This document shows positions 2,510 to 26,101 of a DNA stretch of 33,078 nt, in pieces. Numbering within the stretch: position 1 is the stretch's first letter; each line of letters opens with the position of its first letter. Source of the DNA: a virus; IMG/VR virus record IMGVR_UViG_3300001472_000065, positions 1,758-34,835 of that record; one strand, 5' to 3'. The notes beneath the pieces are model-generated. The model made no database searches. It was not told the DNA's origin and saw only the letters and a list, made by a program, of their open reading frames with translations. The position numbers and the translations under genes are program-made.

Positions 2510-2911
2510 CTAGAATGAGCCACCGTCTAAGGTAAAGCTCGTGGGAGATGATCCCCCTGCTGAGGCAATTGTGTGCCATTCAAATCCACCTGATACTTGT
2601 CTGTATACAAATAATTCTTCACTTGAAGTGTTATACCACAAATCTCCTTCTTGTAAGTTATCTCCTGAAGGGGTTGCGGATTGTCTAAAAAATTGGTCTG
2701 CTAAATCTGCTAGTGCGTCCTGTACATTTCCACCTGGCAATGAGCCATGCTGTGTGTAAGTTACATCTGCAGCTAGTCCTAAAGCTGTTATTAAGTCTGT
2801 ACTTGTTGTAACTGTAATCGGATTATCACTTTGGTTTAGTGTTACTTCTGTATTACTCTCGTTAACTGTTACATACGTTGGAGTTTCTGTTACGGTTACT
2901 TGTATAGCCAT
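2510..2911 (-). CDS. Tail-fibre-associated protein, 133 aa
   Basis: The first third is Thr/Val/Asn-rich beta sequence (VTVTETPTYVTVNESNTEV); the middle is a short helix (VQDALADLADQFFRQ) and the last part holds GDLWYNTSSEELFVYRQVSGGFEWHTIAS, a small beta unit (GDlWyn....elyvy....W) very common in phage fibre and appendage proteins. The C-terminus LDGGSF is followed eight bases later by the next gene. Probably a fibre or fibre-docking subunit. Translationally coupled to the gene before it. Confidence 0.78.
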   Translation of the reverse strand: MAIQVTVTETPTYVTVNESNTEVTLNQSDNPITVTTSTDLITALGLAADVTYTQHGSLPGGNVQDALADLADQFFRQSATPSGDNLQEGDLWYNTSSEELFVYRQVSGGFEWHTIASAGGSSPTSFTLDGGSF

Positions 2912-3246
2912 TATCTTGTTACTTGTGGTGTAAGCGTTACCTTACCCTGTAGTATTCTTGTTACTGCACCTGAAGATGCGGTTATCTCCACATCATATAC
3001 ATATATGCCTTCTTCAATTGCTCCTGTAGCCGACGACGTCATAGATAAAGTTACCTGACCTGCACTCGCGTTGGTTATCGATGCGGTAATTGTACCCACC
3101 ACCGTACTTGAATCGTGGCTTGAACGAAACTGCGAAGCAGCCGAGTACCCAGACAAGTTCATGACTGAATCGTTTTCCTTAAGGGTAAGCAACCTTGTAA
3201 AAGTCGCTCCTTGCTCTATCGTGAAATTATAGGTTCCTGCTGCCAT
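2911..3246 (-). CDS. Beta-rich tail/fibre-associated protein, 111 aa
   Basis: A small beta-sandwich-like protein: GTYNFTIEQGATFTRLLTLKE, MNLSGYSAASQFRSS, GQVTLSMTSSATGAIEEGIYVYDVEI, and RILQGKVTLTPQVTR. I recognise this layout (dLtGy.a..qir, G.YvYDv, rll.G.v...p.vTR) from many phage fibre operons, where it resembles N-terminal domains of baseplate upper or fibre proteins. It is the first gene of the operon read from P2. Stop and next start overlap (TAATG). Confidence 0.78.
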   Translation of the reverse strand: MAAGTYNFTIEQGATFTRLLTLKENDSVMNLSGYSAASQFRSSHDSSTVVGTITASITNASAGQVTLSMTSSATGAIEEGIYVYDVEITASSGAVTRILQGKVTLTPQVTR

Positions 3247-3359: not shown

Positions 3360-4016
3360 CTAGATGCTAGAATATGTCCAAGTTATGTCCTTCCAAGTAC
3401 TGTCATTTGCTTTGTACTGTTCATATTGAGCAATAGTTCCACTATTTTTAACTAAATTATCTTCGTTTATATTAAATGTAGGAGGATTAGCTACTGTAGC
3501 TGTTGCTGTTGCTGATATATCAAATCCAGCAGCAGAATATTTAGTTCTTTCTGCACTCATAGCATTTGAGTTGACAGGATTTGATGCCATAAACCAACTA
3601 TAAGCTGAAGTTACTTCAACTCTTTGGCACATAGCTAAGTTAAACATAGATAATGCTTTCCAATATCCTTGTCCTCTATGACTTGGGTGAGTTATTCCAA
3701 ACTTTAAGTAACATTCATTTACTACTTCAAAAACATAAGTTTGATAACATACGGGAGTTCCATCAGCTTTTTCTAGTATCATAGACCATACTATGCACTT
3801 TTCTTCAAAATCAACATCTCCTGACTTTATTAGTGCTTCTGTTCCATACCCTTCGTTTCTTTCCATATGCGCACTAAATCTATTCATTCTTTCTGTATAT
3901 GTTTGCACTCCTTGAGGAAAATCTTTCCAAGATTCCATATAAAAATTAAAGTCAGACTCTTTCATAGGTCTTAACTTCATACTATTACTTGCTGTTATTA
4001 CTGTATTACACGCCAT
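3360..4016 (-). CDS. GNAT-family acetyltransferase-like protein, 218 aa
   Basis: Contains MKLRPMKESDFNFYMESW near the start, a typical GNAT opening, and FGITHPSHRGQGYWKALSMF, which matches the acetyl-CoA pyrophosphate-binding motif (R-x-x-G-x-G/A type). These fit an N-acyltransferase acting on an unknown substrate. The predicted protein has 12 extra residues (MACNTVITASNS) before that opening; the start at 4016 is kept because it overlaps the hub stop as TAATG, but an ATG at 3980 is possible. It is the last gene before promoter P2. A tail-associated or host-modifying role is open; the C-terminal 60 residues (Thr/Ala-rich, TWKDITWTYSSI) are unlike standard GNATs. Confidence 0.75.
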   Translation of the reverse strand: MACNTVITASNSMKLRPMKESDFNFYMESWKDFPQGVQTYTERMNRFSAHMERNEGYGTEALIKSGDVDFEEKCIVWSMILEKADGTPVCYQTYVFEVVNECYLKFGITHPSHRGQGYWKALSMFNLAMCQRVEVTSAYSWFMASNPVNSNAMSAERTKYSAAGFDISATATATVANPPTFNINEDNLVKNSGTIAQYEQYKANDSTWKDITWTYSSI

Positions 4017-7000
4017 TACGGTTTTGCTCCATTGTGGACTAACATTTTATTTACATAATAAGTATGAGTGTTGTCCACAGTAATCCACCATACTTCTTGT
4101 TCTTCATCTATTTTATTTATTATATCTACTGTACCATTTGTTGTTTTGTCACCTATTTCTAATTCTGCTGGTTCCAAATCAATAACGTGATTTAATAGTT
4201 TGCACTCTTTATAATATTCTCCTGGGTCTATACAAGCCCAGCCCTTATCTTCTACCCATATAGGGTGTCCTGGGGTAAGTCCTAATTCTTGATTAATATA
4301 GTAATAAGAGTCTACTTTTATTGACCCCTTGTTTAAAACTTTTGCTAATTCTTTATTCTCAGTTAATACGTATTCTTCTATTTCGAGGTCTTGTATTTGT
4401 TTTTCTTTCCCACCAAGAAGTGCCACTTTAGTTCCAGATATAAAGCAACCACCACCGCCACCGCCACTTCCTCCTGAGCCAAAGTTAAGTACAGATACTG
4501 TTGCAGTACAAGTTATAGTTTTTGAAGATGCAGTATGTGTTACTGTTATTACTTTGTTTGCTGCTGCACTTCCAAAACTTGAAGAAGTAAATGCATCATT
4601 TCCACTACCAGTGTTAGTTAGTGCAAAAGAGTTAATATTAGACCCTGACCTTGTAAAAGTATAGTTACATGAAAATGTTCCTAATGTTGGGTGAGTTATA
4701 GATATTTCTCCTGTTGCATTAAAAGAAGAAAAACTACTTCCATTATTATATGAAATAAAACTACAAAGTCCCCCTGATGTAAAACTCATGTCACCAAAGT
4801 TGAGTGCACTTACTAATACTCCACCAGCATTTGTAACTAAAGTGCCAGTAATTCCTGTTAAGAATCCTGAATCATTTGTTAAGTCTGATACAGCTGCTGG
4901 TATTGTAGGTAAGCTACTTAAGCTACTATAAGCTCCATCGAATGTAGTAAAGCCTGCCCCGTTTGTTAATTGATTAGTATTAGTTGGTATTGTAGGTTTG
5001 TTACTTAAACTATTAAAGTTTCCATCAAAAAGAGTTGGCAAACTACTTAAGCTACTATAAGCTCCATCGAATGTAGTAAAGCCTGCTCCGTTTGTTAATT
5101 GATTAGTATTAGTTGGTATAGTTGGCAAACTACTTAAGCTACTATAAGCTCCATCGAATGTAGTAAAGCCTGCTCCGTTTGTTAATTGATTAGTATTAGT
5201 TGGTATAGTTGGTTTGTTACTTAAATTATTAAAGTTTCCATCGAATGTAGTAAAACCTGAATCATTTGTTAAGTCTGATACATTACTAGGTATAGTCAGT
5301 TGATCATTTCTAATTCCTGTTGGATAACTAGCATTATCAAATACAGTACCACCAATTTTAAATTGAAGTCGATTATTAGCATCGTCCCAATTTAGTGCAA
5401 AATCTTCTCTTCTTCTATCAATTATATCTCCAAAAAATTCAGGAACTCCAAAAGTTATTGTTTGAGTTCCACCATGAGTTGCTTCTGTAACTTTAAAGTC
5501 TAGTATTGTATATGGGAATGTTCCTCTTGAGTTGCTCCACCCACTTGCTAATCCAGAAAGAAGTGTGGTGGTAAAACTATAACTTACCCCACTTGTAGTT
5601 GGTGCTGATTGAGCACTTGTAGTACTCGCATCGTAATATATAAAACCTTTTGCACTTCTTTGTGATTTTGGGCTTCTTATAAGTCCTGGGTCTGACCATT
5701 CACTTTCTGGTATATCATCAGTTGCAGTATTTGCTGCAGCTGTTGCTGAACATGACCATATATAATTACTATCTGAGGCTGCTGGAACTGCATTTACTGA
5801 CCAGCCATCTAGCTCACTAGAACTATCCGTGAAAGCTTTGTTTGCAAAGTTCCATGTTAAAGTAGTATTGGGGTGTGCAGGAGCACTGCTTGATGTTGTT
5901 AATTTATAAAGTATTATTGTTGCACTATTTATACCTGCAGAACCTGTATCTCCTGTAATTTTTTCTGGTGCAGACCAACTATATGTATTACCACTAGTAT
6001 TATAAATAAAAGTACCTACACTTTGCCATACAGGATTTGAACCTGAAGGTATAGTCGATGACCACCCACTAGGAGGATTTGCTGCTTGCGTGCTTGGAGT
6101 AGCAGGTTGATTTACACTTCTTTGAAATATTTTTGGACTTAAATCAAAGAAAGGACTGTAAAGAGCAGCAGTAGGCCAAGTTACTGTATTAGTTGTTCCA
6201 CTTCCTGTAACGGCTACTTCTGATTCATATATTGCCTGTAAAAAATTAAATGTAGGTCTAGTAGTACTCCAACCACTTGGAATACTTGTTAATGCTCCAG
6301 TATCAAAATTATAATTAGAAGTACCAGTAATAGTTGGTAGTGCTAATAAATAACTTTGTTGTTTGTATATTGCTACTAAAGCTACGCTATCTCCTGCAGA
6401 ACCGTCTGTTCCATCTTCTACAAATTTTGCAGGTGCTGACCACTCAGAAGCTGCTATAGTATCTGTATTTCCTATGCCAGCAGCTGAAGCTGCACAAATG
6501 TATAAAGGATTTCCATCACTTGCTACAGGTGTTTTAGACCAACTATTTGCTAACGAGCCTGTTGTTATTAGTCCTGATACTAAACTTACAGTGACTGCAC
6601 CTGGCCCTGCTGATGATATATTAATTCCACTTAGATCGCTTGCAGACCTTTTGTATGCATATACTAATGCTGTTTTTGTTCCTGGGTCACCAACTGCTCC
6701 AAATGAAGCAAATAATTTAATAGCTGCCCACTCGCTTTGAGGTATTATATCTGTTGCTGCTCCGGCTGCTCCAATAGCTGTTGCTTGTGTTACCCATAAA
6801 TATTGATTGGAAGAACTAACTCCAGGATTAGTAGTAGACCAACCATTTGCAGTAGTAAAACTCACACTTCCATCAGAGAATGTTACAGTTGTGTTTCCTT
6901 CTGGTAATCCGTTATTTGAACCTACGCTTGTTGGAGCGCTAGCATTATTGTTTTGTTTGTATAAAAATATAGTTGAGTTATTTGTGCCATCTACTCCGTC

Positions 7001-10000
7001 TTGTCCCTGCGCTAATACTACAGCTGTTGACCATTCATTAGCTGCAATAGTATCTGTTGAACCATTACCTGCAGCTGTCGCTGCACAGACATATAAAGGG
7101 TTTGTACCTGTAGGGATTGTTTTTGACCAACCATTTGCTAAGCTTCCTGTTGTTATTGTTCCTGAAGTTGTTCCTGTTAAAGAAACAGTTACTGCACCTG
7201 GATTACTTGTTAGTGTACTTGCAGACCTTTGATATGCATACACAATAGCATTTGCCTGTCCTGCGGCTCCTGTTACAGAAGCACCATCTGTCCCTGCTTT
7301 TGCTTTTGATATAGTATAAGTTTTAGTAATAGTTACATCATTTTGATTATCTATTCCACCTACTAAACTTCCTTCTACTTCGCAAGAAAATACTGCTGTT
7401 CCTGTGTCTGCGGACATACTGCTTACAGTATATACACCAGTAGATGAGTTTATACTTACATCTACACCAGTTTCAGAAGATACACTAAATGCTGTTTTTG
7501 CATTGCTTGTTATATCTGTATTACCATAAAATACTTTGAATGTTCCACCTGCTCCTGTAAAATTAGAAACTGTTCCAGTACTAGAAGCAGTTACTGTATG
7601 TGCTTCATTAGTAAGTATTCCTGTTACTGTGCTTTGTCCATCTTGTACTGCAAAAATAGATACAGTATCTTGTGCTAAAACTGTTCCATTATTTGCTCCT
7701 TGTCTTGCTTTTACAAGTACTTTTATTGGAGTATCTGTTGGTCCTGGCTCATCAGAATCTGCTAGTGTAAATGTTGATGTTGTTGTATTTTGTTTTGTTG
7801 TTGCTCCTACAATAAACTCATAGAAGATAGTTCCTTCCATTCCTTGAGTATCTGTAGTAAAAGTTATTGAACTACTTTCATCTCCTACAACGCTATAGTC
7901 TATGACATGGCTGCTTGGAAGTAATTTAATACTTGTAGCTCCTGCGCTTATTGATAAAGATATACCTTGTACACCACCTGTTGCACTTGCAGGAAAATAG
8001 TTTCCTCGTACTACATCTTTTCTATTTCCAGTTACTGCTGATACAACTCTTCTATGCCTTACCCAGAAGTATAATGTTTCTGCTGCTGCAGAAGTATGTG
8101 TGTACCCAGTTGCATTATCAACAGTTGCTAGTAATACTGCTGCTGTTCTATCTTGTGCTGTATGATAAAATATTTCAGTAGAATCTGAGCCTTCTATAAA
8201 GTCCTCTGCATTTGCCCACGCAAGTACTATTGACCCATTTTTATTATTAGTTGCAGTAAGACTTAAAGGTGCTCCTGGTGCCTTACCATCAAAGTCAGGT
8301 GCGGCTTCTGATACTATTTTTAATTTCCTTTGTTTTGTTATAGAATAAATGCTATCATCATACTCTCGGCATTTTACCGAAACACTACAATTTGCCTTAA
8401 AGTTAAGGTTCTGGATTCTAAACAATTTACTAGACCACCCAAATGCTTCGTAGCTTAATGCAATAACTTGTCCAGCTCTTAGTAATAAACCTCTTGGTCC
8501 AATATCAAAACTTACCTCTTTTGAGAAACGAGTATGTACTAATTCTTTTTCTGTTCCAATTCTAGCATTATAATAATTAGTTATACCTGTGTAAGGAAAA
8601 GTTCCGGTTTTTATTACTCCTCTATCTGCCTCTAAAAAAGTTGAGTTAAAGAAAGTTACTGCCCTACTACCATAGTTATTTTGAGGGTCAGATATACTTG
8701 CTTTAATTGTATTCTTTCCTGTTTTCTGAGAATTATCAACTACTTTTAGATTTCCTATAATATCTTTTTCTTCTATATAAAATGCATTTACATTTTCTTG
8801 AGAAGAGTTTAAAGACACTGTAGGAGTTGTTTCTTGAGTTTCTACAGATAATACGTACTTACCATTTTCATAAGATAGTATACCATTAAAGTGAGAAAGC
8901 AAAGCATTAGTATTTGCAAAGACTGATTTAGAAGTATCTAATATAAAATTAGTTTGGTGTCTTGTTACTTCTGCTTGGTGATTTCGTTCCCAACCTACGT
9001 ATCTCCAATACTTTACAAAGTCAGAATCATATAGTGAATACTCTAAGGGGTGTCCTTTATTTAAAGACATTGCTATAGTGCTTGGTCCACTACCAGATAA
9101 CTTATTAATATTTAAGGAGCTTATAGCCTCTAAACTTAAAACAGTGCCTGAAGTATGTGTAGGCACAGTAGCTGGAGGATTAGTTATAGTTCCTGTAGCT
9201 CTATAAAAGTTTCCTGCTTCTGTAAATACAATATCTCCTGGACTTAATAATGTTCTAGTAGCATATTCTTTTGCAAACTTATTTATAACATCAGTAAAAG
9301 TTACTATAGGATTACCTACAGAATCTGTTCCAACAGATAATACTTTTCCAGAAGCTACATGAGCATTACTATTGTTTGGGTTTACTAATTGATAAATATC
9401 TCCTACTGTTACTCCAGAAGTACTCGTAACTTTCATTTCTACGTCTGAACGAGTATCACAAAGTAAAGCAGATTCTAAGAAAGAACTTAAATCTATTTCG
9501 CTTAATTTTAAACCTTTACCATACCTACTTACAGTTAAGTAGTCAAGAGTTTGCATAGTAGGATTAATCGAGGCTCTTCTGTCGCTTCCTTTTCCATCTA
9601 TCTTAAATTTATGACTTGGTAAACAAGGAGTAAAAAATGGAGTATCTAAGGTTATTATGTCTGTTCCAGTACTGAAAGCCTCTATTTCCCTAAACTCTCC
9701 AGTAGTTAGATTTGTTAGTATTGCTCCTCTTTGTGTAAAAGTGTTTGTGTGACCAAAAGAACTAGTAACACTATGTGTTTGTTGCAATTCATTTTGTGTA
9801 GCACTTTCAACAGCAGAAACTCCTGTAAAATCTAAATCATAAGCATTTAAAAGCTTAATTGACTGATTAAAAGTAACACCAGTATAATTTGTATTTGAAA
9901 AAGTTAAAATATTATCACTACCACTAGTACTCCATGTTCCTTCTAATAATCCATATTTTAATCCTTTGATTCCATCATTTGTGTTATCACTATCATCATA

Positions 10001-12574
10001 CCAAGCTGGGTCATGGAACTGTACAAAAGTTTTGCCATTAGTATCTCCTAATTTTGTTTTTTCTGCATTATCTATACTTGAAAATTGTAGTTCTCCACTT
10101 CCATTTACACCTGCAGTAGCTGCTACTGTGTGGTCTGGAAATGAAATATTGTCTGATTCTTTAACTACTGCATGATTCCATGTTACCATGTGCCAGTACT
10201 GATTAGAGTCATTTTTTAATCTTAATCTTGTTCTTGCAGGAGTACCATCTGTAAATAGAAGACTAGGAGCTTTATCTAATCTGAATTTTTGAAAAGATAC
10301 AGCTCTATTACTTGTAAACAAGTAAGAGTCCATTATTTTAAATTTACCGCTTGTAAAGTTACCCGTAGTATCTGTGGTCCAATTAGACCCATCTGTACTA
10401 TACTGAACTGTTACTAAGTCACCTTCTGAAAAGTTGGCTGCATTATCACTACCACCTAAAGCCGCATCTGGTATATAAGTATGGTCATAGTTAAAACATT
10501 CCATGACTTTACCTTTCATTACATATTCAATTTCAGGAATATTTGTACTATCTGCGTCTATTTCAAACTTAAAAGCTGAGTATGCGGTGTCTAATAATCT
10601 ATGATTAACACTCCAATAAGGTAAATTTCCATCATAGTAATTATTTTGTCTTTTATACCCACCTAAATCTGCTACTGCAGTAGCTGACCCACTTACTGTA
10701 ACTGTAGGAGCGCTAGTATATCCGCTGCCATTATCATCAATTCTTATGTATCTAACTTTTCCGGCATCATCAGTAGCATCAGTTCCTAAAACAGCTGTTG
10801 CTTGTGCTCCTGAACCACCGCCGCCGCTAAAAGATACAGAAGGTGCGCTATTTCCATAACCACTGCCTGCATTAATAACTCTGACTCCTAATACTCTGCT
10901 ATTTGAAATAGCAGGTTCTAATAACATTCCTGCTGCTCTTTGATTTGGTCTGCCTGATAAAAAATGAAGAGATATAGAATATGGGTGAGTTATACTCCAA
11001 GTTTCATCGTGTCCAAGTCCTTCTGCTGATTTAGTACTTAGAGCTGGAGAAATGCCTCCTTGTATAGCTATAGCATTATTGAGTGGTCCTAAAGCAACTA
11101 ATCGTTCTTGATTTGTATTAGTTATTGCTACGTCTGCTAAATCTGCTTTTGATAATGTATTTTGAGGGTCTGTTGAAGCATTACCAGCATATCTTTCACC
11201 ACTCATAGTATTCCCATGAGACATATTACCATAACATTGAAGTTGAGTATTGTCTTTATCAGAACCACCACTTACACTTCTAATATCAAAATCATTATCA
11301 TCAGTACACATTAAAGGAACATCATCTATATAAAGATTAAAGAGTCCATGTACTTCTCCTTCACAAATGGCGTCTGCTGTATAAATTATTTTTGCATTAT
11401 TGTTTAAGGTATCTGCAAATATTGGATTACCATTTATTCTTTGAACTCCATAAACAATAGGTAAATGTTTTCCTTGTAAATGAACATTTAAATCTACTTC
11501 ATGTTGGACATCTGTTTGGTATTCTTCTTGCCAATACTTTTTTTGTCCAGTAAGGCCTGCAATACCTCCTCTTTTTTTAGATTTCATTCTAAAACGAGTT
11601 TCTTGAGTTTGATAATTTGCTATCGCTGAAAGTGAAGTTTCTGAATGTAAGAATCCTAAGTCAGCTGCGTATTCTCTTCTGTGTGCTGATTCTGGTTGAG
11701 GAGCTCCCCTAGCGTCTAGAGCTCTATGAGTTTCATCAGTTGTCATTCTACCCTGAATAGAAGCAAAATCTCCCCAATGACTTGTAAGTGTCCAGTTTAC
11801 TTTACTTCCTGTTAAAGCTTCATTGATATCAACAGAAGCTATTATTCCTTTGAATACTGTGACTGTTGCATTTCCTATAATGGCTCCAGTCTCTGGTTCT
11901 ATAAATATCTTATCTATAGTTACTTCTCTATTGACAAAGTCTGGGCTAGAAGCTATTACTCCTGCTACACTAGTTACTCTGTCTCGAGTGATACCTTTTA
12001 GTTCTTCTGAATCGAGTTCTATTGTGAAGCTAGTTGAAGATACTGCTGCTAGTGTGGAATCGTCGTCGTCAGTACCTGTTCTTGAAAATTTTATGACAGT
12101 ATTGTTTGTTGTAAAAGAATTAATTACAAAAGTTTTAGTAGTACTACTATAAGTAACTTTTATTTGGTCACCCTCTCGGAAACCTTCTTCTACAAAGTCT
12201 AATATTTCTCCATTGTGTGTTGTTGAGGAAGGAGTGAATGTTCCTTCTGAGCCCGAAACAGTTATAGCACCATTCAAAGTTATTTTAGCAGATATATTTT
12301 CTCCTGCTAAAGTTAACTTCATGGAGGTTGCTCTGGCTTGTGTAGTTTCGGAGTATGTTCCAATAGATAAAATTCTATTGGCTCTATAAGTATTACCACC
12401 ATAAACTATATCTGTTGCTCCATCTGTATAGTACGCATACCTATTAGTGTTTGTTCTATAAGCACTATCTAATGAGTCAAAAGGTCTCTCGAACTTTATT
12501 AAGTGCGCATAAACAAAATCGTCATTAGAGACGAGTGCCGTTTTAATACTGGAATTGATATTTCTTTCTGTCAT
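4016..12574 (-). CDS. Giant tail hub/tip attachment protein with C-terminal Hint domain
   Basis: A 2852-residue protein at the tail tip. Residues 1-350 resemble a hub start (YGGNTYRANRILSIG); from about 366 it is gpJ-like (HLPIVYGVQRINGNPIF, AICEGEVHGLFNLYIDD). An inserted pair of Gly-Ser-Gly-Tyr repeats (about 555-635) and more hub sequence follow, to CREYDDSIY near 1402. Then a fibronectin III domain (about 1433-1525), Ig-like strands (about 1648-1765), and seven degenerate 60-100 residue beta modules with GWS and EWS motifs (about 1770-2380). Near-identical 29-residue repeats follow (2454-2555), then a Gly-rich linker. Residues 2710-2848 form a Hint domain: Cys2710 (GCFISGTKV), LTPGHPIW, and VHN2848, with GAKP left after it. 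Receptor binding and self-processing are inferred. Confidence 0.92.
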   Translation of the reverse strand: MTERNINSSIKTALVSNDDFVYAHLIKFERPFDSLDSAYRTNTNRYAYYTDGATDIVYGGNTYRANRILSIGTYSETTQARATSMKLTLAGENISAKITLNGAITVSGSEGTFTPSSTTHNGEILDFVEEGFREGDQIKVTYSSTTKTFVINSFTTNNTVIKFSRTGTDDDDSTLAAVSSTSFTIELDSEELKGITRDRVTSVAGVIASSPDFVNREVTIDKIFIEPETGAIIGNATVTVFKGIIASVDINEALTGSKVNWTLTSHWGDFASIQGRMTTDETHRALDARGAPQPESAHRREYAADLGFLHSETSLSAIANYQTQETRFRMKSKKRGGIAGLTGQKKYWQEEYQTDVQHEVDLNVHLQGKHLPIVYGVQRINGNPIFADTLNNNAKIIYTADAICEGEVHGLFNLYIDDVPLMCTDDNDFDIRSVSGGSDKDNTQLQCYGNMSHGNTMSGERYAGNASTDPQNTLSKADLADVAITNTNQERLVALGPLNNAIAIQGGISPALSTKSAEGLGHDETWSITHPYSISLHFLSGRPNQRAAGMLLEPAISNSRVLGVRVINAGSGYGNSAPSVSFSGGGGSGAQATAVLGTDATDDAGKVRYIRIDDNGSGYTSAPTVTVSGSATAVADLGGYKRQNNYYDGNLPYWSVNHRLLDTAYSAFKFEIDADSTNIPEIEYVMKGKVMECFNYDHTYIPDAALGGSDNAANFSEGDLVTVQYSTDGSNWTTDTTGNFTSGKFKIMDSYLFTSNRAVSFQKFRLDKAPSLLFTDGTPARTRLRLKNDSNQYWHMVTWNHAVVKESDNISFPDHTVAATAGVNGSGELQFSSIDNAEKTKLGDTNGKTFVQFHDPAWYDDSDNTNDGIKGLKYGLLEGTWSTSGSDNILTFSNTNYTGVTFNQSIKLLNAYDLDFTGVSAVESATQNELQQTHSVTSSFGHTNTFTQRGAILTNLTTGEFREIEAFSTGTDIITLDTPFFTPCLPSHKFKIDGKGSDRRASINPTMQTLDYLTVSRYGKGLKLSEIDLSSFLESALLCDTRSDVEMKVTSTSGVTVGDIYQLVNPNNSNAHVASGKVLSVGTDSVGNPIVTFTDVINKFAKEYATRTLLSPGDIVFTEAGNFYRATGTITNPPATVPTHTSGTVLSLEAISSLNINKLSGSGPSTIAMSLNKGHPLEYSLYDSDFVKYWRYVGWERNHQAEVTRHQTNFILDTSKSVFANTNALLSHFNGILSYENGKYVLSVETQETTPTVSLNSSQENVNAFYIEEKDIIGNLKVVDNSQKTGKNTIKASISDPQNNYGSRAVTFFNSTFLEADRGVIKTGTFPYTGITNYYNARIGTEKELVHTRFSKEVSFDIGPRGLLLRAGQVIALSYEAFGWSSKLFRIQNLNFKANCSVSVKCREYDDSIYSITKQRKLKIVSEAAPDFDGKAPGAPLSLTATNNKNGSIVLAWANAEDFIEGSDSTEIFYHTAQDRTAAVLLATVDNATGYTHTSAAAETLYFWVRHRRVVSAVTGNRKDVVRGNYFPASATGGVQGISLSISAGATSIKLLPSSHVIDYSVVGDESSSITFTTDTQGMEGTIFYEFIVGATTKQNTTTSTFTLADSDEPGPTDTPIKVLVKARQGANNGTVLAQDTVSIFAVQDGQSTVTGILTNEAHTVTASSTGTVSNFTGAGGTFKVFYGNTDITSNAKTAFSVSSETGVDVSINSSTGVYTVSSMSADTGTAVFSCEVEGSLVGGIDNQNDVTITKTYTISKAKAGTDGASVTGAAGQANAIVYAYQRSASTLTSNPGAVTVSLTGTTSGTITTGSLANGWSKTIPTGTNPLYVCAATAAGNGSTDTIAANEWSTAVVLAQGQDGVDGTNNSTIFLYKQNNNASAPTSVGSNNGLPEGNTTVTFSDGSVSFTTANGWSTTNPGVSSSNQYLWVTQATAIGAAGAATDIIPQSEWAAIKLFASFGAVGDPGTKTALVYAYKRSASDLSGINISSAGPGAVTVSLVSGLITTGSLANSWSKTPVASDGNPLYICAASAAGIGNTDTIAASEWSAPAKFVEDGTDGSAGDSVALVAIYKQQSYLLALPTITGTSNYNFDTGALTSIPSGWSTTRPTFNFLQAIYESEVAVTGSGTTNTVTWPTAALYSPFFDLSPKIFQRSVNQPATPSTQAANPPSGWSSTIPSGSNPVWQSVGTFIYNTSGNTYSWSAPEKITGDTGSAGINSATIILYKLTTSSSAPAHPNTTLTWNFANKAFTDSSSELDGWSVNAVPAASDSNYIWSCSATAAANTATDDIPESEWSDPGLIRSPKSQRSAKGFIYYDASTTSAQSAPTTSGVSYSFTTTLLSGLASGWSNSRGTFPYTILDFKVTEATHGGTQTITFGVPEFFGDIIDRRREDFALNWDDANNRLQFKIGGTVFDNASYPTGIRNDQLTIPSNVSDLTNDSGFTTFDGNFNNLSNKPTIPTNTNQLTNGAGFTTFDGAYSSLSSLPTIPTNTNQLTNGAGFTTFDGAYSSLSSLPTLFDGNFNSLSNKPTIPTNTNQLTNGAGFTTFDGAYSSLSSLPTIPAAVSDLTNDSGFLTGITGTLVTNAGGVLVSALNFGDMSFTSGGLCSFISYNNGSSFSSFNATGEISITHPTLGTFSCNYTFTRSGSNINSFALTNTGSGNDAFTSSSFGSAAANKVITVTHTASSKTITCTATVSVLNFGSGGSGGGGGGCFISGTKVALLGGKEKQIQDLEIEEYVLTENKELAKVLNKGSIKVDSYYYINQELGLTPGHPIWVEDKGWACIDPGEYYKECKLLNHVIDLEPAELEIGDKTTNGTVDIINKIDEEQEVWWITVDNTHTYYVNKMLVHNGAKP
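4912..5214 (-). repeat. 87-bp in-frame tandem repeats in the hub gene
   Basis: Three copies of an 87-base (29-codon) unit start at 4912, 5041 and 5128 in plus coordinates; the latter two are adjacent and identical over about 85 bases, while the first is separated by a 42-base half unit. Each encodes a repeat with NQLTNGAGFTTFDGAYSSL, and more diverged VSDLTNDSGF copies flank both sides (about 4869-5280). The near-identity at DNA level indicates recent duplication by slippage or recombination. Confidence 0.88.
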
Positions 12575-12575
12575 A

Positions 12576-13277
12576 TTATGGTTGTGCTTCTTCTAGGTTT
12601 AGTGAAAATTGATATAAATTGTTTGTTTGTAATTTATACTCCATAACATCTGAAGTAAGCATTACTCTGAAAGTAGGAGTATAGTCTAATGTGGAATTAT
12701 TAGAAACGCTTTTTTCTATCGAAGGAGTTACGTAGTATACTCTGTGAGATGAATCTGTAGGTTGATTTCCTGTTAAGTAATCTGTACTAGTAAGTACACG
12801 AGTTACTTGGTAAACTTTTTTATGATTAGAGTTATCAGAGTCTGTGAAGTTAAACATATCTCCAGGTCTTAAACTGCCTGATGAAACTCCATCTACCATA
12901 AAATTAGTTGCTCCTGCAGTTATATCTCCATCTACTGCTATTGTGCTTGTTACTGTGCTTCTTGGTGCATTGTATTGAGGAAGTACTATTTCAAAAGGTT
13001 TTAATCTTCCTCTTCTTTCCTGTAAAAAAGCATACACAGGTTCAAACTCGTCACGAGTCATAGGATTGTAAGTTATTGCTATTTTCCAATTATGTCCTGC
13101 AATAGCACGAGTAGTTACTCTTCCGCTATTTGTTCTACTGATTGCAACTGGCTGATTCGATGTAAATTGCACACTAGCAAAACCAGGCCCGGCTGTTCCT
13201 GAACCTCCTTTACCTGTTTCTTCTATAGAGTAGTTAGGGTCTGGTAATCTATTTGAAAAAGAACTAAATGCTGCCAT
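12576..13277 (-). CDS. Distal-tail-position protein (Dit-like), 233 aa
   Basis: Lies directly between the tape measure and the giant hub protein, where the distal tail protein sits in siphophages. ITYNPMTRDEFEPVYAFLQE and GRLKPFEIVLPQYN resemble the minor tail/DUF2460-like pattern (a helix then an FxxxLP strand). It then contains a beta insertion (about 110-180: TIAVDGDITAGATNFMVDG, GDMFNF) before YTPTFRVMLTSD and a final strand NLYQFSLNLEE. The fold assignment is by pattern and order only. Coupled to the tape measure by TAATG; one base separates it from the hub gene. Confidence 0.75.
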   Translation of the reverse strand: MAAFSSFSNRLPDPNYSIEETGKGGSGTAGPGFASVQFTSNQPVAISRTNSGRVTTRAIAGHNWKIAITYNPMTRDEFEPVYAFLQERRGRLKPFEIVLPQYNAPRSTVTSTIAVDGDITAGATNFMVDGVSSGSLRPGDMFNFTDSDNSNHKKVYQVTRVLTSTDYLTGNQPTDSSHRVYYVTPSIEKSVSNNSTLDYTPTFRVMLTSDVMEYKLQTNNLYQFSLNLEEAQP

Positions 13278-16200
13278 TAGTATCCACTCCCTGAACCACC
13301 CATTGATTGTGTATCAACTTGCTCTAAGAAATATTCTCCTGTATCATTTGCCGCTTCTCTAATCATTTCTATGATATTCCCTCTTTGCTCTACTAGTAGC
13401 TCTTGTACGCCTGACGCATCTACTGCATTTATGTTGAAGTTTATATTTTGTTGTCCTTTATTTAATTCATTATTTGGAATTACATCTACTTTTGGAGAGG
13501 TTGGTTTTATTACTTCTGGACCTTGTTCTCCTACTAGTATTCCTTCTCCACCTGTGAAGTATCCTTTCTTACCATATGCTCCACCTGTTGGTGTAAAGTT
13601 ATTTGCACCTGAACCATAACCTCTTTGACCTCTTAAGTATGCTAATTCTCCTGCGCTTCCTCCTCTTGATACATCTACTTTATTGTCTCTTTTGCCCATT
13701 GATACTTTTTGTACTTGAGGTTTATCAACACTTGAAGCTCCACCAGAATAAGATGTTTTTGCAATAACAGCTAACTGGGCTGCACCAAGTGCTGCGATGA
13801 CAGCTGTTTGAGCTGCTGCTATACCTGGGGAGAAGAATGGGTCTTTTACACCTGACCATACACCCATAATACCTGCTGCAGTATTTGCAACAGTTACAGC
13901 CATTTGCATTTTTTTGTTTTGGTCAAATGCTTTTCTCTTCATAGCTTCTTTTTTAGCTTCCATAGCTTTAATTTTGCCTAAACTTTCTTTTGACTTGCCA
14001 TCTCTATTCTTTTCTGATTGTATTTGTTTATCCATTTCGGATATTTGTACTTGTGAATTTTGTTGCATTATTTGACCAATAGCTGTTAAAGTTGAAGCTA
14101 CTGCTGCGGCTACTGCTGCTCCTCTTTCCATTGAATTTGCTGCTTTATCTCCAGTTCTTGCAAATACTTCTCCAACATTACCCCAAGCATCTGATATTAC
14201 CATAGCTCCTTGTGCGACTAAAGCTACTAGTTCTCCTTCTGGCCCTAGTTTTTTGAGTTCTTCTGACATAGTTGTAATAGTGTCTCTTACTCCTGCTAGT
14301 TGTAATCCTTTTGCTAGTTTTTCTTTATCCTCTTTGGTACCCATTGCATTACCATCAACATCTTTCTTATCTAAAGCTGCTATTCCTTCTTGTATGGCTT
14401 CTCTTTGAGCCAGTATTCCATTTACTAATCCTGTGCCAAAAGCTTTACTTACGCTGCCTTCTAAATCAACGAGAAGAACATCTTTTGCTGATTTAATTAT
14501 TGTTTTTAGAGCTTTTTGTTGTAGTCCTGTTGCGTCAGTTACATTCTTTTTTAAATCCTTAACGTCAATGCCTTTTAGTTTACCTTCTTCTTTCAATACA
14601 TCAATTCTTGCAAGTAGAATAGCTTCTTCTACTGCTAGTAGTGACTTTTTAATTTGCGCTTCAAGTACTACAAATTCAAATTTTCTATTAGCAGCTTCTA
14701 ATTCTACTCTGGCCGCTTCTGCTGGATTTAATGATGCAGTTCCTCTAGTACGAATAGCATTTGCTTTTAATTCGGCATCTAAAGCTTTTTGACTAGCATC
14801 TGATAATTCTTTTTGTGCTGCTATTTTTACTTTTAATGCTTCTAGTCCTTCTTTTTCTATCCTGGATTCTTCTGTTTTTACTGCTACTTTTTTCTCTATT
14901 CTTTTTATTTCTTCTTCGTCAAAGAATGCTTGAGCTTGACTAAATTCATTTGCAGAGATTCCAAACCCCTGCATAATTTCTGCTCTTTTAAGTTGATCTT
15001 TTTCACCATCTAATAGCTTTCTTAAAGTAGCTAGTTCTTCTTTTTTTGTTCCAAAACTTATTAAAGACACATTAGTAGTTGCTTCTTGAACTTTTAAATT
15101 TTCTTTTGCAATATCTGTAATAGCTTGTTGCCTTTTTGTATTTACACCTAAGCCGCCTCTAGTAAGTTTTTGGTAACGTTTTTCTAAAGAAGTTAGTCTG
15201 GCAATTTCTGCTTTTGATGTAATTATTAGTCCTTGGTACTCTCTTAGTTCTTCTGCTGCCTCTTTAAATGCTGTTTTTGCAGCATCTCCTGATTTATCTA
15301 TTAGAGTCATTACACCGTCTACTTCTGTAAATAAAGTATTAAATAACTGTCCAAATGCATTATCTGAATCTGCAAACTTTTTGAAAAATTCTTCCACCTT
15401 TGTATTATCTAGCTCATCATCATCTAGAATAGTTTGGAACCCTGCTGACATTTGATCAAAACTACTTAATATATCATCAACTTTTGTTTTTGGCATAAAT
15501 GTTTGTTGAAATTTACCAACAGATTCTTGAGCACCTGTAATAGCTGATACTAATACCTCATATGCTTTTGCATTTTTTTGTGTAATTCTTATATCTTCTT
15601 CTGCTAATATTAGTCCTTTTTGTGTGTCTATGTTTAAATTTTTTCTTATTTTATCAGCGAGTGTTTGTGCTTCAAATTCGTCTCGCACTGCGGATATAAA
15701 TCTTCGTGCATTGACATCAAGAGTTAAATATGTTTCTTTTTGTGCGTTTGTTAGCTTACCATTATTTCTTAAAGAAGCTTCTAATTCATTTAGTACAGCT
15801 GATGTATCTCTATATCCTTTATTATTATCTTCGAAACTTTCCTTTAGTAGTTTTCTACTCTTAACCTGCTGTTGTTCAAATCCTTGTACTTTTTGAACCG
15901 CTTCAATGTATTTATCAGCTCCGCTTATACTATCAGAATATAAATTTGTTAAAATCTCACTTCCTTCTCTTGCTGCTCCTTCTATTAATTTTTTTGTACC
16001 TTCTTGAATTGCTTTGTTTCTATCTGCCGTACTAGCAAAGAATGAGTCATATCTTCCTGAAAGAGTGAATAATCCTTTTAGAAAATCTCCTGTATTTGTA
16101 AAAGCGTTTGCTGTTCTTGATACATCTTGAAACTTTTCTTCAATACTTAGTAGAGACTCTCCAATTTCCATTGATGATTTATTAAAAGCTACCTGAGCTT

Positions 16201-18016
16201 TTGTTACTTCTAAGTAAGATAATTTATTTTCGTGAATTATATCAGTTTGCGTTTTAAATCTTTCAGAAGCATTTTCTAATAAATCATTCTGTCTTTCTAT
16301 AGCTTCTGAAAATGCTTTTGTTTCTTTTCTTCCAAATCCCATAGCTTTACCAATAGCTATTAATATTGGGGATAAAAGAGTAAATATCATCATGATAGGT
16401 CCCAATTTCATCATAAGGTTATTAAAAGCAATACCAGTAGCTGAAACACCACCTTTTAAACCAATAAGAGCTTTTTCTGATAAACTATATTTATCAACTA
16501 ATTTTCCTTTTACAGTTTCTTGCTCTTTAAATATTTCTGTCATCTGGCCAAAGCCTTCTCTTACTCCCTGAGTTTCCATTGTTCCTGCTATATCAGCAAC
16601 AGCTCCAGATACTCTTGCTTGAGAGTCTAATTTGTTTTGTCTTCTATCAGCAAGGGTTCCTGGTTTTATACCTTTTCTTTTTTCATTTTCAATTTGTTTT
16701 AGTCTTTCTTCTAATTTTACTTCATCTTTAAGAAATGCTAATTCTTGTTTTATTAGACTTAAATTTTTTCCTTTTGCTTTTGCTTGTGCTTTTTCAAGTA
16801 CATTTATTCTTTCTTGGACTTTTTCTGCTCTTTTCTTTGTTCCTAGTTTTGCTTTATCAAGTGCAGTTGTACTTGCACCTGGTTGTGAACTTCTTGACAC
16901 AAATCTTTTTTGATCTTGTTGTTGTTGTTTTAAAGTTTTCCTTGTAGCTTTTAATCTTTGTTCTTCTTCGCTAAGTGCTCTATTTGTTCCATGTCTGAGA
17001 CTGTCTGTGTATTCTTTTGCTGCTTCAGCTCTTTCTTGTGCTAACTCAGCTGTGTTTTTTGTCATAATTCCTAGAGCTGGAACCGCTTTCTTTAATAGTA
17101 CGAATACTAATGCCCCGAATACTGCTTGTAATAATATTTTTGATTCTGCTAAAAAGCCAAGTAAAGGGCCTAACATAGAGTTAACTACTGTGAGCCCTCC
17201 TTGCGCAATATCTCCTAGAGCTGCTCCAAGTCTTACATAAGGATCGGGTTTTATTTCTTCTGCGTATTGTTGAAACTTACGCTGCCCTTGTTCTAGTATC
17301 TCATTTAAAAATGCTTGTCGTCTTTCTACTTGTGTTAGTGCTGAAACAACTTTACCGTTGTTTCTAGCGTATTTTTGTGCTGCTTCATCTACACGAACAA
17401 ATAGTCCAATTTCGTCTAGGATTTCTGGCTCGAGTTTGATTGCACCACGGAATATTCTATCCATAGCATCGGGTAAGTTTCTTCCTAATGAAATAGCTGC
17501 TCCTTTTGCAACTTGAGTTAATCCTTCAATCTCTTTTGTGCTTAGACCAGCACTAGAAGCAAGAGATACCTGTCTGAAAGATTGAGCTAAATCTACCGCA
17601 AATCCAGAAGCTTCCTGTAGCTCTTTTGATAAGTTTTTAATATAAGTACCACCTGTAGTACTTAGTATTTCCATAGATTCTATTAAAGTATCTACTTGAG
17701 ATGCTCTTGATAGTACCCCAAAAGCAGCTGTCAAAGCAAAAACGTTAGCAGCTAAAAGAGCGTATGCTCTAACAAGTCCACCTGCTCCGCCGCCGTCTGT
17801 TGCTTGTTGTAGTTTTGAAAAGTTTTTAGTAGTATTAGCAGTCTGTATTACCCCTTGTTTTTGACGAGTATAAGCATCTTTTTGAGTTTTGTTATATTTC
17901 TCGGTACTTTTTGAAGCTTTATCAGTATTTTGACTGACTTTTTTAGCTCCATCAGAAACCTTTTTAAGATTTCCCGCTCCGTCAAGGGTAATAGTTAATT
18001 TAATATCTTGTGCCAT
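13277..18016 (-). CDS. Tail tape measure protein
   Basis: A 1579-residue tape measure that fixes tail length and is ejected with DNA. The usual rule of about 0.15 nm per residue predicts a tail near 235 nm (inference). It opens with DIKLTITLDGAGNLKK, and has hydrophobic segments near 82-103 (YALLAANVFALTAAFGVL), 285-318, 535-560 (IMMIFTLLSPILIAIGKAMG) and 1365-1425, separated by long Lys/Glu/Gln-rich coiled coils. SAGLSTKEIEGLTQVAKGAA (about 160-180) is typical of TP901-type tape measures, and the C-terminal GILVGEQGPEVIKP is a common tape-measure ending motif. No lysozyme or peptidase domain was noticed. Its stop overlaps the next ATG (TAATG). Confidence 0.93.
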   Translation of the reverse strand: MAQDIKLTITLDGAGNLKKVSDGAKKVSQNTDKASKSTEKYNKTQKDAYTRQKQGVIQTANTTKNFSKLQQATDGGGAGGLVRAYALLAANVFALTAAFGVLSRASQVDTLIESMEILSTTGGTYIKNLSKELQEASGFAVDLAQSFRQVSLASSAGLSTKEIEGLTQVAKGAAISLGRNLPDAMDRIFRGAIKLEPEILDEIGLFVRVDEAAQKYARNNGKVVSALTQVERRQAFLNEILEQGQRKFQQYAEEIKPDPYVRLGAALGDIAQGGLTVVNSMLGPLLGFLAESKILLQAVFGALVFVLLKKAVPALGIMTKNTAELAQERAEAAKEYTDSLRHGTNRALSEEEQRLKATRKTLKQQQQDQKRFVSRSSQPGASTTALDKAKLGTKKRAEKVQERINVLEKAQAKAKGKNLSLIKQELAFLKDEVKLEERLKQIENEKRKGIKPGTLADRRQNKLDSQARVSGAVADIAGTMETQGVREGFGQMTEIFKEQETVKGKLVDKYSLSEKALIGLKGGVSATGIAFNNLMMKLGPIMMIFTLLSPILIAIGKAMGFGRKETKAFSEAIERQNDLLENASERFKTQTDIIHENKLSYLEVTKAQVAFNKSSMEIGESLLSIEEKFQDVSRTANAFTNTGDFLKGLFTLSGRYDSFFASTADRNKAIQEGTKKLIEGAAREGSEILTNLYSDSISGADKYIEAVQKVQGFEQQQVKSRKLLKESFEDNNKGYRDTSAVLNELEASLRNNGKLTNAQKETYLTLDVNARRFISAVRDEFEAQTLADKIRKNLNIDTQKGLILAEEDIRITQKNAKAYEVLVSAITGAQESVGKFQQTFMPKTKVDDILSSFDQMSAGFQTILDDDELDNTKVEEFFKKFADSDNAFGQLFNTLFTEVDGVMTLIDKSGDAAKTAFKEAAEELREYQGLIITSKAEIARLTSLEKRYQKLTRGGLGVNTKRQQAITDIAKENLKVQEATTNVSLISFGTKKEELATLRKLLDGEKDQLKRAEIMQGFGISANEFSQAQAFFDEEEIKRIEKKVAVKTEESRIEKEGLEALKVKIAAQKELSDASQKALDAELKANAIRTRGTASLNPAEAARVELEAANRKFEFVVLEAQIKKSLLAVEEAILLARIDVLKEEGKLKGIDVKDLKKNVTDATGLQQKALKTIIKSAKDVLLVDLEGSVSKAFGTGLVNGILAQREAIQEGIAALDKKDVDGNAMGTKEDKEKLAKGLQLAGVRDTITTMSEELKKLGPEGELVALVAQGAMVISDAWGNVGEVFARTGDKAANSMERGAAVAAAVASTLTAIGQIMQQNSQVQISEMDKQIQSEKNRDGKSKESLGKIKAMEAKKEAMKRKAFDQNKKMQMAVTVANTAAGIMGVWSGVKDPFFSPGIAAAQTAVIAALGAAQLAVIAKTSYSGGASSVDKPQVQKVSMGKRDNKVDVSRGGSAGELAYLRGQRGYGSGANNFTPTGGAYGKKGYFTGGEGILVGEQGPEVIKPTSPKVDVIPNNELNKGQQNINFNINAVDASGVQELLVEQRGNIIEMIREAANDTGEYFLEQVDTQSMGGSGSGY

Positions 18017-24037: not shown

Positions 24038-26101
24038 TTAACTAGCTTTGTATTGTAAAGCGTGAACTGAAGTTGCACCCGCAATCATATCGGTAAACCC
24101 GATTCTTTGCGAAGCTACTAGAACTCTTCTTTGATTTGCTACTTCGTAGTCGGACTCAATAGTAACACCTCTTAATCTAGGCATTACATAGTTCTTGGTG
24201 TACACTGCACAACCATAGAACTTAGAAGTTGCTGGAGTTTTAAACTCGTCACAAACGATTACTTTAGAACCAAAGACTTCACCAATTTCACCATTAAGCT
24301 TAGTTGCCATGTTGCCAACTAGGTTGACATCTTGGAATTCAGCATCGGATAGCAAGTTGAAGTACTCAGTAGAGTTAACAATATACATTACATCTCTAGG
24401 GTTAATACCATATTTACCCATTTTCTTTCTAGCATTTAACAATGTAGCTGCTGTTAAAGATTCAGATGCGAATGCAGTTGCTGACTGAGATACGTGAGAA
24501 CCACTTGAGTTAGCTGCAACCGCTAAAGCGATTAAGCCGTCAAAAGCTGCTTGTGATGTACCATATACACCATCAGCATGGTCACCTACTAAGATAGCAT
24601 TCTCAATACCTCTTGCATGTGATCTAACGATAGACTCTCTAATTAAAGGAAGTATCGGTAGAATTGCGTCTTCTTCAGTTTCATTACCTAAGTAAGATTG
24701 TGAAATAAGTTTTTTGGTTGAAAGAGTTCTTTCTGTTAAATCAACACCACTATATGTTCCGTCATAAGTGTCGCCTCTTTCCTCTAAGTTACCATGTGGT
24801 GAAGACCCAGAAGCTACTTGGTTAGAAGTAAATTCTGCATATCCAGCATCAGGCATGATAGGAATGATTTGAGTTGCTGATTGCATTGGGATTTCTCTAA
24901 ATAGAGGAGCCAATACTAACTCTAATTGAATATCTCTTTCAATGTTTGTTGATACTGTTTGTTCAAAATCAGCTGATGAAACGCCAACACCTGAATGGGC
25001 ATTAACTTTTTCCATAGTTTCATTTGCAAGCTTAGTATTCCAGCCTTTACCAGTAGCAAGACCCATAACCCAAGCGTCATCAATGTCGCTTTGGAAGGCT
25101 TTCTGCCAGTCGTTGTTTTGTCTATCGCCAAAATGTCTTTTGGATTCACGCATAGCGTTAATCTCATCTTTCTTGTCGGATAGTTCAGTTTTAAGTTCAT
25201 TAACAACAGATTCTAAGTCTCCTTGTCTTTCAGAAACGCGTTTTTCAACGTCATTTACGAGCTGTTCAGCTCCTGTAAGACCAGCAGTTACTATTGTTTT
25301 AACTTTTTCTTGCTCAGCTTCTTTTTTAGCTAGTTCTGCACTTTCTGCAGTAGCTTTCTCTTCGGCTTCGCTTAACTCTTTTGCTTTTTGTTCTGCTTGT
25401 TGCATTGCGATTTTAGCAGCAGTTGATTTTGCCACCTCTTCCGCGAACGCTTTTAAGTCTAACTCAGCATTTGGAGTAGTTTTTTCTGTAGACATATGTC
25501 TCTCCTGTTGAGTGGTTTTACCCACGGCTTGTGGCGCATCAATTTCGTCAGTTTTTACTGCTTCCATCTCATGAGCCTGTTTTACGTCATTTGTAAATTC
25601 AGCTTTCCATTCATCGTATTCTGATTGAGAATCGAATGATTTCGCAATCGAAAACATTGCTGTCTGGTTGCAAGGTACACTTACAACAGACACTTCGAAT
25701 AGCTCAGCGTCCTTTATTTTATATCCGTCGGTTTCCTTTAGATAATCTGCGTCCTTGACTCGGAAACCCACGGAAAATGCTCCAAGTACGCCATCTTTTA
25801 TAAGATCTTTTACATCGCCTGCAGACTTAGAGATTCTAGCTCCAAGTTCGAGGCCTTTGTCGTTTACTTCTAATGAAGTAGCACGACCTATTGGTCTGTT
25901 ATAGTCATGGTTAAAAAGAATTATTGGATTACCTTTAAAGTTTTCCAATCCACCATTTTTAGTCCATGCGTCATGGTCAATACAATCACCCGCTCTATCT
26001 GATGCGTTAGTGCTAGCATATCCTTTGATATTCACACTTCCATCATCATCTTCGCCTAATGTTTTAAATGTTGATGACCAATGAAAAATTTTATCTGACA
26101 T
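24038..26101 (-). CDS. Fused prohead protease - scaffold - HK97-type major capsid protein
   Basis: A 687-residue polyprotein. Residues about 1-165 are an HK97 prohead protease: NHDYNRPIGR (His65), GAFSVGF (Ser110) and ELFEVSVVSVP (Glu136) give the serine protease residues. Residues about 205-320 are a Glu/Lys/Ala-rich coiled coil matching a scaffolding (delta) domain. Residues about 330-687 are the capsid fold, with ILPLIRESIVRSHARGIENAILVG, the AATLLNARKKMGKYG helix and IVNSTEYFNLL. The protease would cleave the scaffold from the assembled shell. An in-frame ATG at 25495 (residue 203) with a strong ribosome binding site could yield a 485-residue scaffold-capsid product without the protease. 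It follows the 85-aa gene with two bases between and is followed by a terminator. Confidence 0.94.
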   Translation of the reverse strand: MSDKIFHWSSTFKTLGEDDDGSVNIKGYASTNASDRAGDCIDHDAWTKNGGLENFKGNPIILFNHDYNRPIGRATSLEVNDKGLELGARISKSAGDVKDLIKDGVLGAFSVGFRVKDADYLKETDGYKIKDAELFEVSVVSVPCNQTAMFSIAKSFDSQSEYDEWKAEFTNDVKQAHEMEAVKTDEIDAPQAVGKTTQQERHMSTEKTTPNAELDLKAFAEEVAKSTAAKIAMQQAEQKAKELSEAEEKATAESAELAKKEAEQEKVKTIVTAGLTGAEQLVNDVEKRVSERQGDLESVVNELKTELSDKKDEINAMRESKRHFGDRQNNDWQKAFQSDIDDAWVMGLATGKGWNTKLANETMEKVNAHSGVGVSSADFEQTVSTNIERDIQLELVLAPLFREIPMQSATQIIPIMPDAGYAEFTSNQVASGSSPHGNLEERGDTYDGTYSGVDLTERTLSTKKLISQSYLGNETEEDAILPILPLIRESIVRSHARGIENAILVGDHADGVYGTSQAAFDGLIALAVAANSSGSHVSQSATAFASESLTAATLLNARKKMGKYGINPRDVMYIVNSTEYFNLLSDAEFQDVNLVGNMATKLNGEIGEVFGSKVIVCDEFKTPATSKFYGCAVYTKNYVMPRLRGVTIESDYEVANQRRVLVASQRIGFTDMIAGATSVHALQYKAS
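25495..25506 (-). promoter_or_regulatory. Internal Shine-Dalgarno and in-frame ATG inside the protease-capsid gene
   Basis: AGGAGA (25506-25501) stands five bases before an in-frame ATG whose first base is 25495. The codon is Met203, exactly at the border between the protease and the scaffold coiled coil. This is among the best ribosome binding sites in the window and clearly better than the AAAGG nine bases before the full-length start at 26101, which supports separate high-level production of the capsid part. Confidence 0.7.

Follow-up and report, generated by a model that had tools for sequence, protein, structure and literature searches.

A Hint domain at the end of the tail hub protein of a T5-like phage: a candidate autoprocessing element of the tail tip

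What purpose does a Hint domain, the fold of inteins and of the Hedgehog C-terminal domain, serve as the last part of a phage tail hub? The question is raised by a 33,078-nucleotide stretch of viral DNA (hereafter the window), taken from a linear virus record of 34.8 kb. Positions 4016–12574 of its minus strand encode a tail hub or central fibre protein of 2852 residues, a fusion of a T5-like hub with a long fibre on its C-terminal side (PHROG 31, central tail fiber J, 9.8e-25; tblastn identity of about 32% to the hubs of T5-like Demerecviridae). Translation of the window gives a C-terminus reading GSGGSGGGGGG-CFISGTKV...LTPGHPIW...NTHTYYVNKMLVHN-GAKP-stop. An Ig-like beta domain (residues ~2591–2698; 4481–4804, minus strand), which is conserved together with the Hint domain in the alignments of relatives and whose strands are visible in the structural model, stands directly before the Gly-rich linker GSGGSGGGGGG (residues 2699–2709; 4448–4480, minus strand), and the Gly at -1 is invariant among relatives. 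The Hint domain itself, of the type A BIL-like kind according to Pfam, the alignment of relatives, the fold search and dN/dS, spans residues 2710–2848 (4031–4447, minus strand). It opens with Cys2710 (4445–4447), the predicted nucleophile of an N-S acyl shift, carries the block B TxxH motif as TPGH (4265–4276, with Thr2767 at 4274–4276 and His2770 at 4265–4267) and the block F His in NTHTYY, and closes with His2847-Asn2848 (4031–4036), the predicted site of Asn cyclisation. The Cys, the Thr, both motif His residues and the terminal His-Asn are invariant in type A relatives. The tail GAKP (4019–4030), with Lys2851 at 4022–4024, completes the protein, the end of the domain and its tail reading HTYYVNKMLVHN-GAKP. 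With its terminal His-Asn and Gly2849 at +1, the VHN-G ending is that of type A BILs.

An intact Hint domain thus ends the tail hub of the window, as the sequence-only reading had proposed; residues, relatives and the fold matches of the model all bear this out, and the letters and residue numbering given there were correct on re-translation. It had placed the domain at 4016–4447. The end of that span stands and its start does not, because a span beginning at 4016 also covers the stop codon and the four residues behind the domain. The profile comparison suggested at that point did match Hint families, with Intein_splicing (3.6e-6), Vint (2.4e-4) and Hom_end_hint (3.5e-4) recovered from the isolated 144 residues, but every Pfam score lies under the curated cut-off (27.3 bits against 35.8 for Intein_splicing, 21.4 against 27 for Vint), so that the evidence from this single sequence is suggestive only. 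Since two relatives, L155 and L156, pass the Vint cut-off (and L156 that of PT-HINT too), the low scores are read as divergence and not as missing homology. A toxin PT-HINT was rejected as an identity, GAKP alone and no toxin domain being found behind the Hint. The AXH domain (ataxin-1/HBP1) also matches the region weakly (4019–4450; Pfam 1.5e-5, under cut-off), and the motif CF.(K)GT is common to HBP1 and the window Hint.

Neither a tblastn search of the Hint against named phages (no match at E 0.01) nor a single-sequence scan of viral contigs gave any match. An alignment-based scan of the same kind of contigs detected 12 with the Hint, at 47–60% identity, and a second scan added one more (L160). 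In all 13 the Hint is the very end of the protein, complete hubs measuring 2461–3068 residues, and Cys1, TxxH and VHN are kept wherever the region is complete. Judging from these alignments, a resemblance due to chance is ruled out, the catalytic residues being retained in every complete copy. Behind VHN the relatives carry GAKP, GAKE, GGKE... or SK[D/E/Q/N]; the +1 residue is therefore mixed within the family, with VHN-G in the window, L125 and L128 and VHN-SK in several others. The dN/dS of the Hint (0.11–0.30) shows purifying selection and is mostly below that of the preceding Ig-like domain.

An AlphaFold model of the Ig-like and Hint region, built from 26 relatives, reached a pLDDT of about 90 across the Hint. 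When this model was searched against the PDB, 35 structures matched at E ≤ 0.001, led by BIL and intein structures. The top match was BIL2 of Tetrahymena BUBL1 (6y75, E 2.4e-9), and the C. thermocellum BIL (2lwy, 3.3e-7), many inteins and the Hedgehog C-terminal (Hog) domain (1at0, 5.6e-4) matched as well. As modelled, the domain has the horseshoe fold of Hint proteins.

By anchoring on the GNAT-fold gene behind the hub, the Ig-like domain and a 112-residue gene, we found other endings of the hub region. Type B hubs (L155, L156 and L161) bear tandem Hints arranged as GVGG-Hint1-VHN-GGGGGGG(Y)K-Hint2, and that of L156 has lambda-K/I-like neighbours. Type C hubs (L187, L206, L163 and the identical L162) possess the shorter Hint2 alone, lacking HN. 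Type D is a separate lineage, with a different poly-Gly Hint on lambda-J-type hubs (L209, by Pfam); two of its members, L211 and L230, have Ser instead of Cys1, an acidic, Asp/Glu-rich linker instead of the Gly linker and the tail Lys shifted to +1. Given the Ser1 of these two and the missing terminal HN of type C hubs, the full set of reactions is not universal. L208 offers a natural Hint-less partner, being 70% identical to L209 over 2038 alignment columns and ending where L209 runs on into Ig-like domain, poly-Gly and Hint; on this comparison the Hint is a C-terminal add-on to the hub. The short second Hint (L155:3023–3346, L206, L163) reads C...TNDHP...TVGGKY, occurs alone or behind Hint1 without His-Asn, and shows one Lys immediately before its Cys and another in penultimate position.

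Upstream of the hub, also on the minus strand, lie an adjoining pb9-like distal tail protein (12576–13277; PF21425 at 7.8e-9, over cut-off; PHROG 1302) and the tape measure protein (13277–18016; PHROG 3779, 4e-81), which, together with a p140-type tube, make the upstream genes T5-like. The N-part of the hub and the capsid share some 32–37% identity with Demerecviridae. A single 687-residue ORF at 24038–26101, apparently a fusion, matches two proteins of T5-like phages, the major capsid protein and the head maturation protease. The phage is T5-like and, because of the company kept by the cassette described below, probably of marine origin. The order tape measure, Dit, hub and a homologous N-part are shared with the pb3 hub and pb4 central fibre of T5, which bears a receptor-binding protein at its tail tip (PMC10038345). 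In contrast to a T5-like Vibrio phage, whose hub of ~955 residues is separate from its straight-fibre gene, the window has a single 2852-residue chain with a Hint. As hub and fibre form one long chain here, the Hint should sit at the presumably trimeric tip.

Downstream of the hub, on the same strand, comes a GNAT-fold protein of 218 residues (3360–4016), assigned from its model, fold search and synteny, whose start overlaps the hub stop. Its model matches SpeG and Rv0802c at E ~1e-7, and its putative acetyl-CoA P-loop (R/Q-x-x-G-x-G/A) reads RGQGYW in the window, RGTGYA in L155 and RGNKYW in L125, where the CoA loop is degenerate. It is followed by proteins assigned from PHROG matches and synteny: a fibre-assembly-like protein of 111 residues (2911–3246; PHROG 1084/3304, L-shaped tail fiber protein assembly), a tail-fibre-like one of 133 (2510–2911; PHROG 21412), a fibre-like structural one of 439 (1181–2500; PHROG 15769/697) and a further one of 111 (650–985; PHROG 1276). 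All relatives that reach this region show the same order of genes behind the hub (GNAT-fold, then 112, 126–136, at least 511, 69 and 110 residues, then a long fibre). With the 112-residue gene as anchor, the GNAT-fold gene directly follows all 16 type A, B and C Hint hubs and occurs in none of 49 anchored Hint-less loci, some of which end before the hub; type D hubs have none. Taken together, gene order and co-occurrence suggest that the Hint is part of an exchangeable host-recognition cassette, with the Ig-like domain, the Gly linker, the GNAT-fold gene and the fibre genes. The cassette occurs on both T5-like and lambda-J-like hubs, which means that tip modules move between unrelated phages; host-recognition modules common to distant phages, and removable chaperone domains on fibres, have been described (PMC10579305).

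The sequence-only reading had passed over the tail as only GAKP; the tail is as given there, but its lysine had been overlooked. We scanned viral contigs with the pattern GGG-CF..GT, which leaves the tail outside the pattern and demands GGG before CF, so the frequency of the Gly linker is no finding. The scan yielded 62 Hint representatives, 44 of which end in HN or a near variant, and the Hint stands at the extreme end of unrelated phage proteins: among the 39 with a closed C-terminus, 25 have at most 14 residues behind HN. Their +1 residue is mostly Lys or Gly. Lys was present in every one of 48 distinct short-tail Hints (42 distinct strings) and in 12 of 12 clusters at 45% identity, against an expected fraction of 0.31–0.32 in the C-termini of 676 other long ORFs from the same loci. 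The product over the 12 clusters is 1.5e-7 taking the shortest tail per cluster and 2.8e-6 taking the longest, values that serve as guides because related sequences are not independent. Glu is mildly increased in the short tails, Arg slightly depleted, and no other residue is enriched comparably. In tails of 3–14 residues the Lys ranges from +1 to +14, and it is the one thing that these tails, unrelated in other respects, have in common. Counting all distinct HN Hints, 69 of 70 carry Lys within +14, the sole exception having an intein-like Ser at +1. An origin of the lysine in Shine-Dalgarno sequences or A-rich gene ends was considered; the C-termini of other ORFs from the same loci served as the control, and L209, which has no close downstream gene, also has the Lys.

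As a negative control we used a block-F/G pattern scan, whose 117 sequences are nearly all canonical phage inteins; 113 have Cys, Ser or Thr at +1, and just 29 have Lys within +1..+9. Phage inteins with a VHN ending carry one of these three residues at +1 and mostly lack a Lys close by. In bacterial HN-Hints, Lys lies within +1..+4 in 20 of 21 with a preceding Gly-Gly and in 5 of 15 without it (Fisher 1e-4). This contrast between Hint classes is, at the level of sequence comparison, the firm part of the lysine result. In one bacterial alpha-2-macroglobulin (L141:7505–12610; Pfam), a Gly-Gly-Hint-HN-(D/E/AE)KG is found between the bait-region and A2M domains, and the same insertion was recognised by similar sequence in bacterial genomes (L236–L281).

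According to the reading that we favour, and consider fairly probable, the Hint of the window is an active self-processing domain like those of type A BILs, a part of the exchangeable cassette that sits at the hub tip and removes itself after translation. The phage would probably trim or cap its own tail tip in this way. The invariant catalytic residues of type A hubs, the dN/dS values and the BIL and intein structures at the top of the fold search argue for it, as do the C-terminal placement, the +1 residue (mostly Lys or Gly, unlike inteins), the add-on seen between L208 and L209, the constant Lys and the joint travel with the cassette. The chemistry, read from the conserved residues, the fold and the lysine rule, would run in three steps. 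An N-S acyl shift at Gly2709-Cys2710 would give a poly-Gly thioester of the hub; water or an amine, most simply that of Lys2851, would resolve it; and cyclisation of Asn2848 would part the Hint from the tail. The predicted product is a hub with a poly-Gly end, either free or isopeptide-linked to the tail peptide, while the 15-kDa Hint is shed. Cys, His-Asn and Lys, conserved together, fit such a takeover of the thioester with departure of the Hint after Asn cyclisation. By analogy with the removable intramolecular chaperones of other fibres, a likely role would be one-time maturation of the trimeric tip.

The absence of an ordinary +1 nucleophile had been recognised from the sequence, and the conserved residues are consistent with N-terminal cleavage that would probably leave the hub with a poly-Gly end. 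N-terminal cleavage alone is hard to square with the conserved terminal His-Asn, which makes a role for the C-terminal step probable as well. Splicing had been judged unlikely with Gly at +1. The Gly is there, but ligation may still occur, because type A BILs, which form a thioester at Cys1, cyclise Asn and can ligate via a free amine, are able to splice to a small extent even when a +1 nucleophile is missing (PMC4031507).

Among known systems, type A BILs such as that of C. thermocellum share the Hint fold, the terminal His-Asn, the lack of a +1 nucleophile and of an endonuclease, and a place in variable, non-conserved proteins (PMC7765530, PMC4031507); the window Hint differs in that it follows a Gly linker right at the end of a phage hub, has a conserved tail Lys and is tied to a tip cassette. 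BIL2 of Tetrahymena BUBL1 (6y75/6tmm), besides being the top structural match, has a Gly-Gly N-flank and a C-extein Lys (GGGGGG-C and GAK in the window), but it lies between ubiquitin-like domains with a folded C-extein as acceptor, whereas the window family has a tail of 3–14 residues and a predicted chemistry. Hog shares the C-terminal Hint and the N-S acyl shift predicted here; the window Hint keeps HN, has four residues behind it and lacks a sterol-recognition region. Canonical phage inteins have the same fold and motifs and are inserted in a conserved site; a canonical class 1 intein was rejected, given Gly2849 in place of a +1 Cys, Ser or Thr and the C-terminal add-on. The chaperones of fibres and spikes (T5 L-shaped fibre, K1F) are likewise removable C-terminal domains on fibre proteins, but unrelated in fold and chemistry, so chaperone action is an analogy; a Pfam search of the hub gave no Peptidase_S74 match.

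One could argue that the second step occurs without hydrolysis, the hub poly-Gly thioester passing to the side chain of the tail Lys, on its own or a neighbouring chain, and Asn cyclisation freeing the Hint. We regard this capping or ligation as a serious, if less probable, version. It would explain why His-Asn and Lys are retained although four residues follow, and the closest fold, BIL2, is reported to join its thioester to a C-extein lysine as an isopeptide (PMC8616854, PMC9200820). The presence of Lys in all short tails and clusters, with Arg slightly depleted, its near-constancy in Hints preceded by Gly-Gly, bacterial ones included, and its scarcity behind canonical inteins point the same way. 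Against this, the position of the Lys is variable, the sequences are related, and the Lys could act as a base or a charge or belong to a favoured G/K-rich insertion site. More tentatively still, Gly-Gly-Hint-His-Asn-Lys may be a distinct class, present in phage tail tips and in bacterial proteins such as alpha-2-macroglobulins, in which Lys replaces the +1 nucleophile of inteins and a self-sufficient, ATP-free mechanism links a poly-Gly carboxyl end to a Lys side chain by an isopeptide bond, maturing virion tips or fixing them covalently.

It seems unlikely that the thioester is passed in trans to a different amine, on the virion or in the host, perhaps with help from the GNAT-fold protein, leaving the hub covalently joined to a hypothetical acceptor. 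The strict association of that gene with type A, B and C hubs and its confirmed fold speak for this idea, but type D Hint hubs do without it, the P-loop of L125 is degenerate, and neighbouring genes of one module are co-inherited. We find it similarly improbable that the Hint is a degenerate or selfish mini-intein, useless to the phage and parked in a tolerant Gly-rich place. It is small and without endonuclease, and tandem Hints or Hints embedded in G/K-rich sequence do exist (L103, L028, L155); purifying selection, the retention of His-Asn and Lys, strict linkage to the tip cassette, C-terminal placement and the lack of the +1 nucleophile that allows clean escape of an intein stand against it. 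Finally, a domain that retains the Hint fold for a structural, chaperone or receptor-binding task, without processing, would suit the presumed tip location and the relatives with Ser1 or without HN, but has little probability, as the window family keeps all catalytic positions while many other residues vary.

In open papers, with the BIL literature covered in its open part, we found no Hint domain in a phage tail hub and no covalent Hint self-processing at a tail tip. The Hint itself belongs to a known superfamily; new are its tail-tip place, its cassette and the signature lysine, with priority less certain in the case of the lysine rule. If the favoured autoprocessing reading is true, siphophages would have a further route of maturing their host-recognition end, beside removal of S74-type chaperones. 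For an abundant class of Hints that lacked an assigned acceptor, the lysine rule yields a definite chemical prediction, and it offers candidates for tools that would ligate proteins at lysine without ATP.

Hints also occur in other arrangements in phage proteins. One of 613 residues (L103) contains three in tandem (from residues 36, 166 and 304) separated by KG/KGGGG, and L005, L099 and L109 have two each. In two hubs of lambda-J-like appearance the Hint is near the N-terminus, within a Gly/Lys-rich stretch (L028, from residue 18; L024, from residue 30). A large class of phage proteins of ~480–630 residues (L010, L075, L118 and others) ends in a poly-Gly Hint-like segment that lacks the terminal His-Asn (FTDYFE...).
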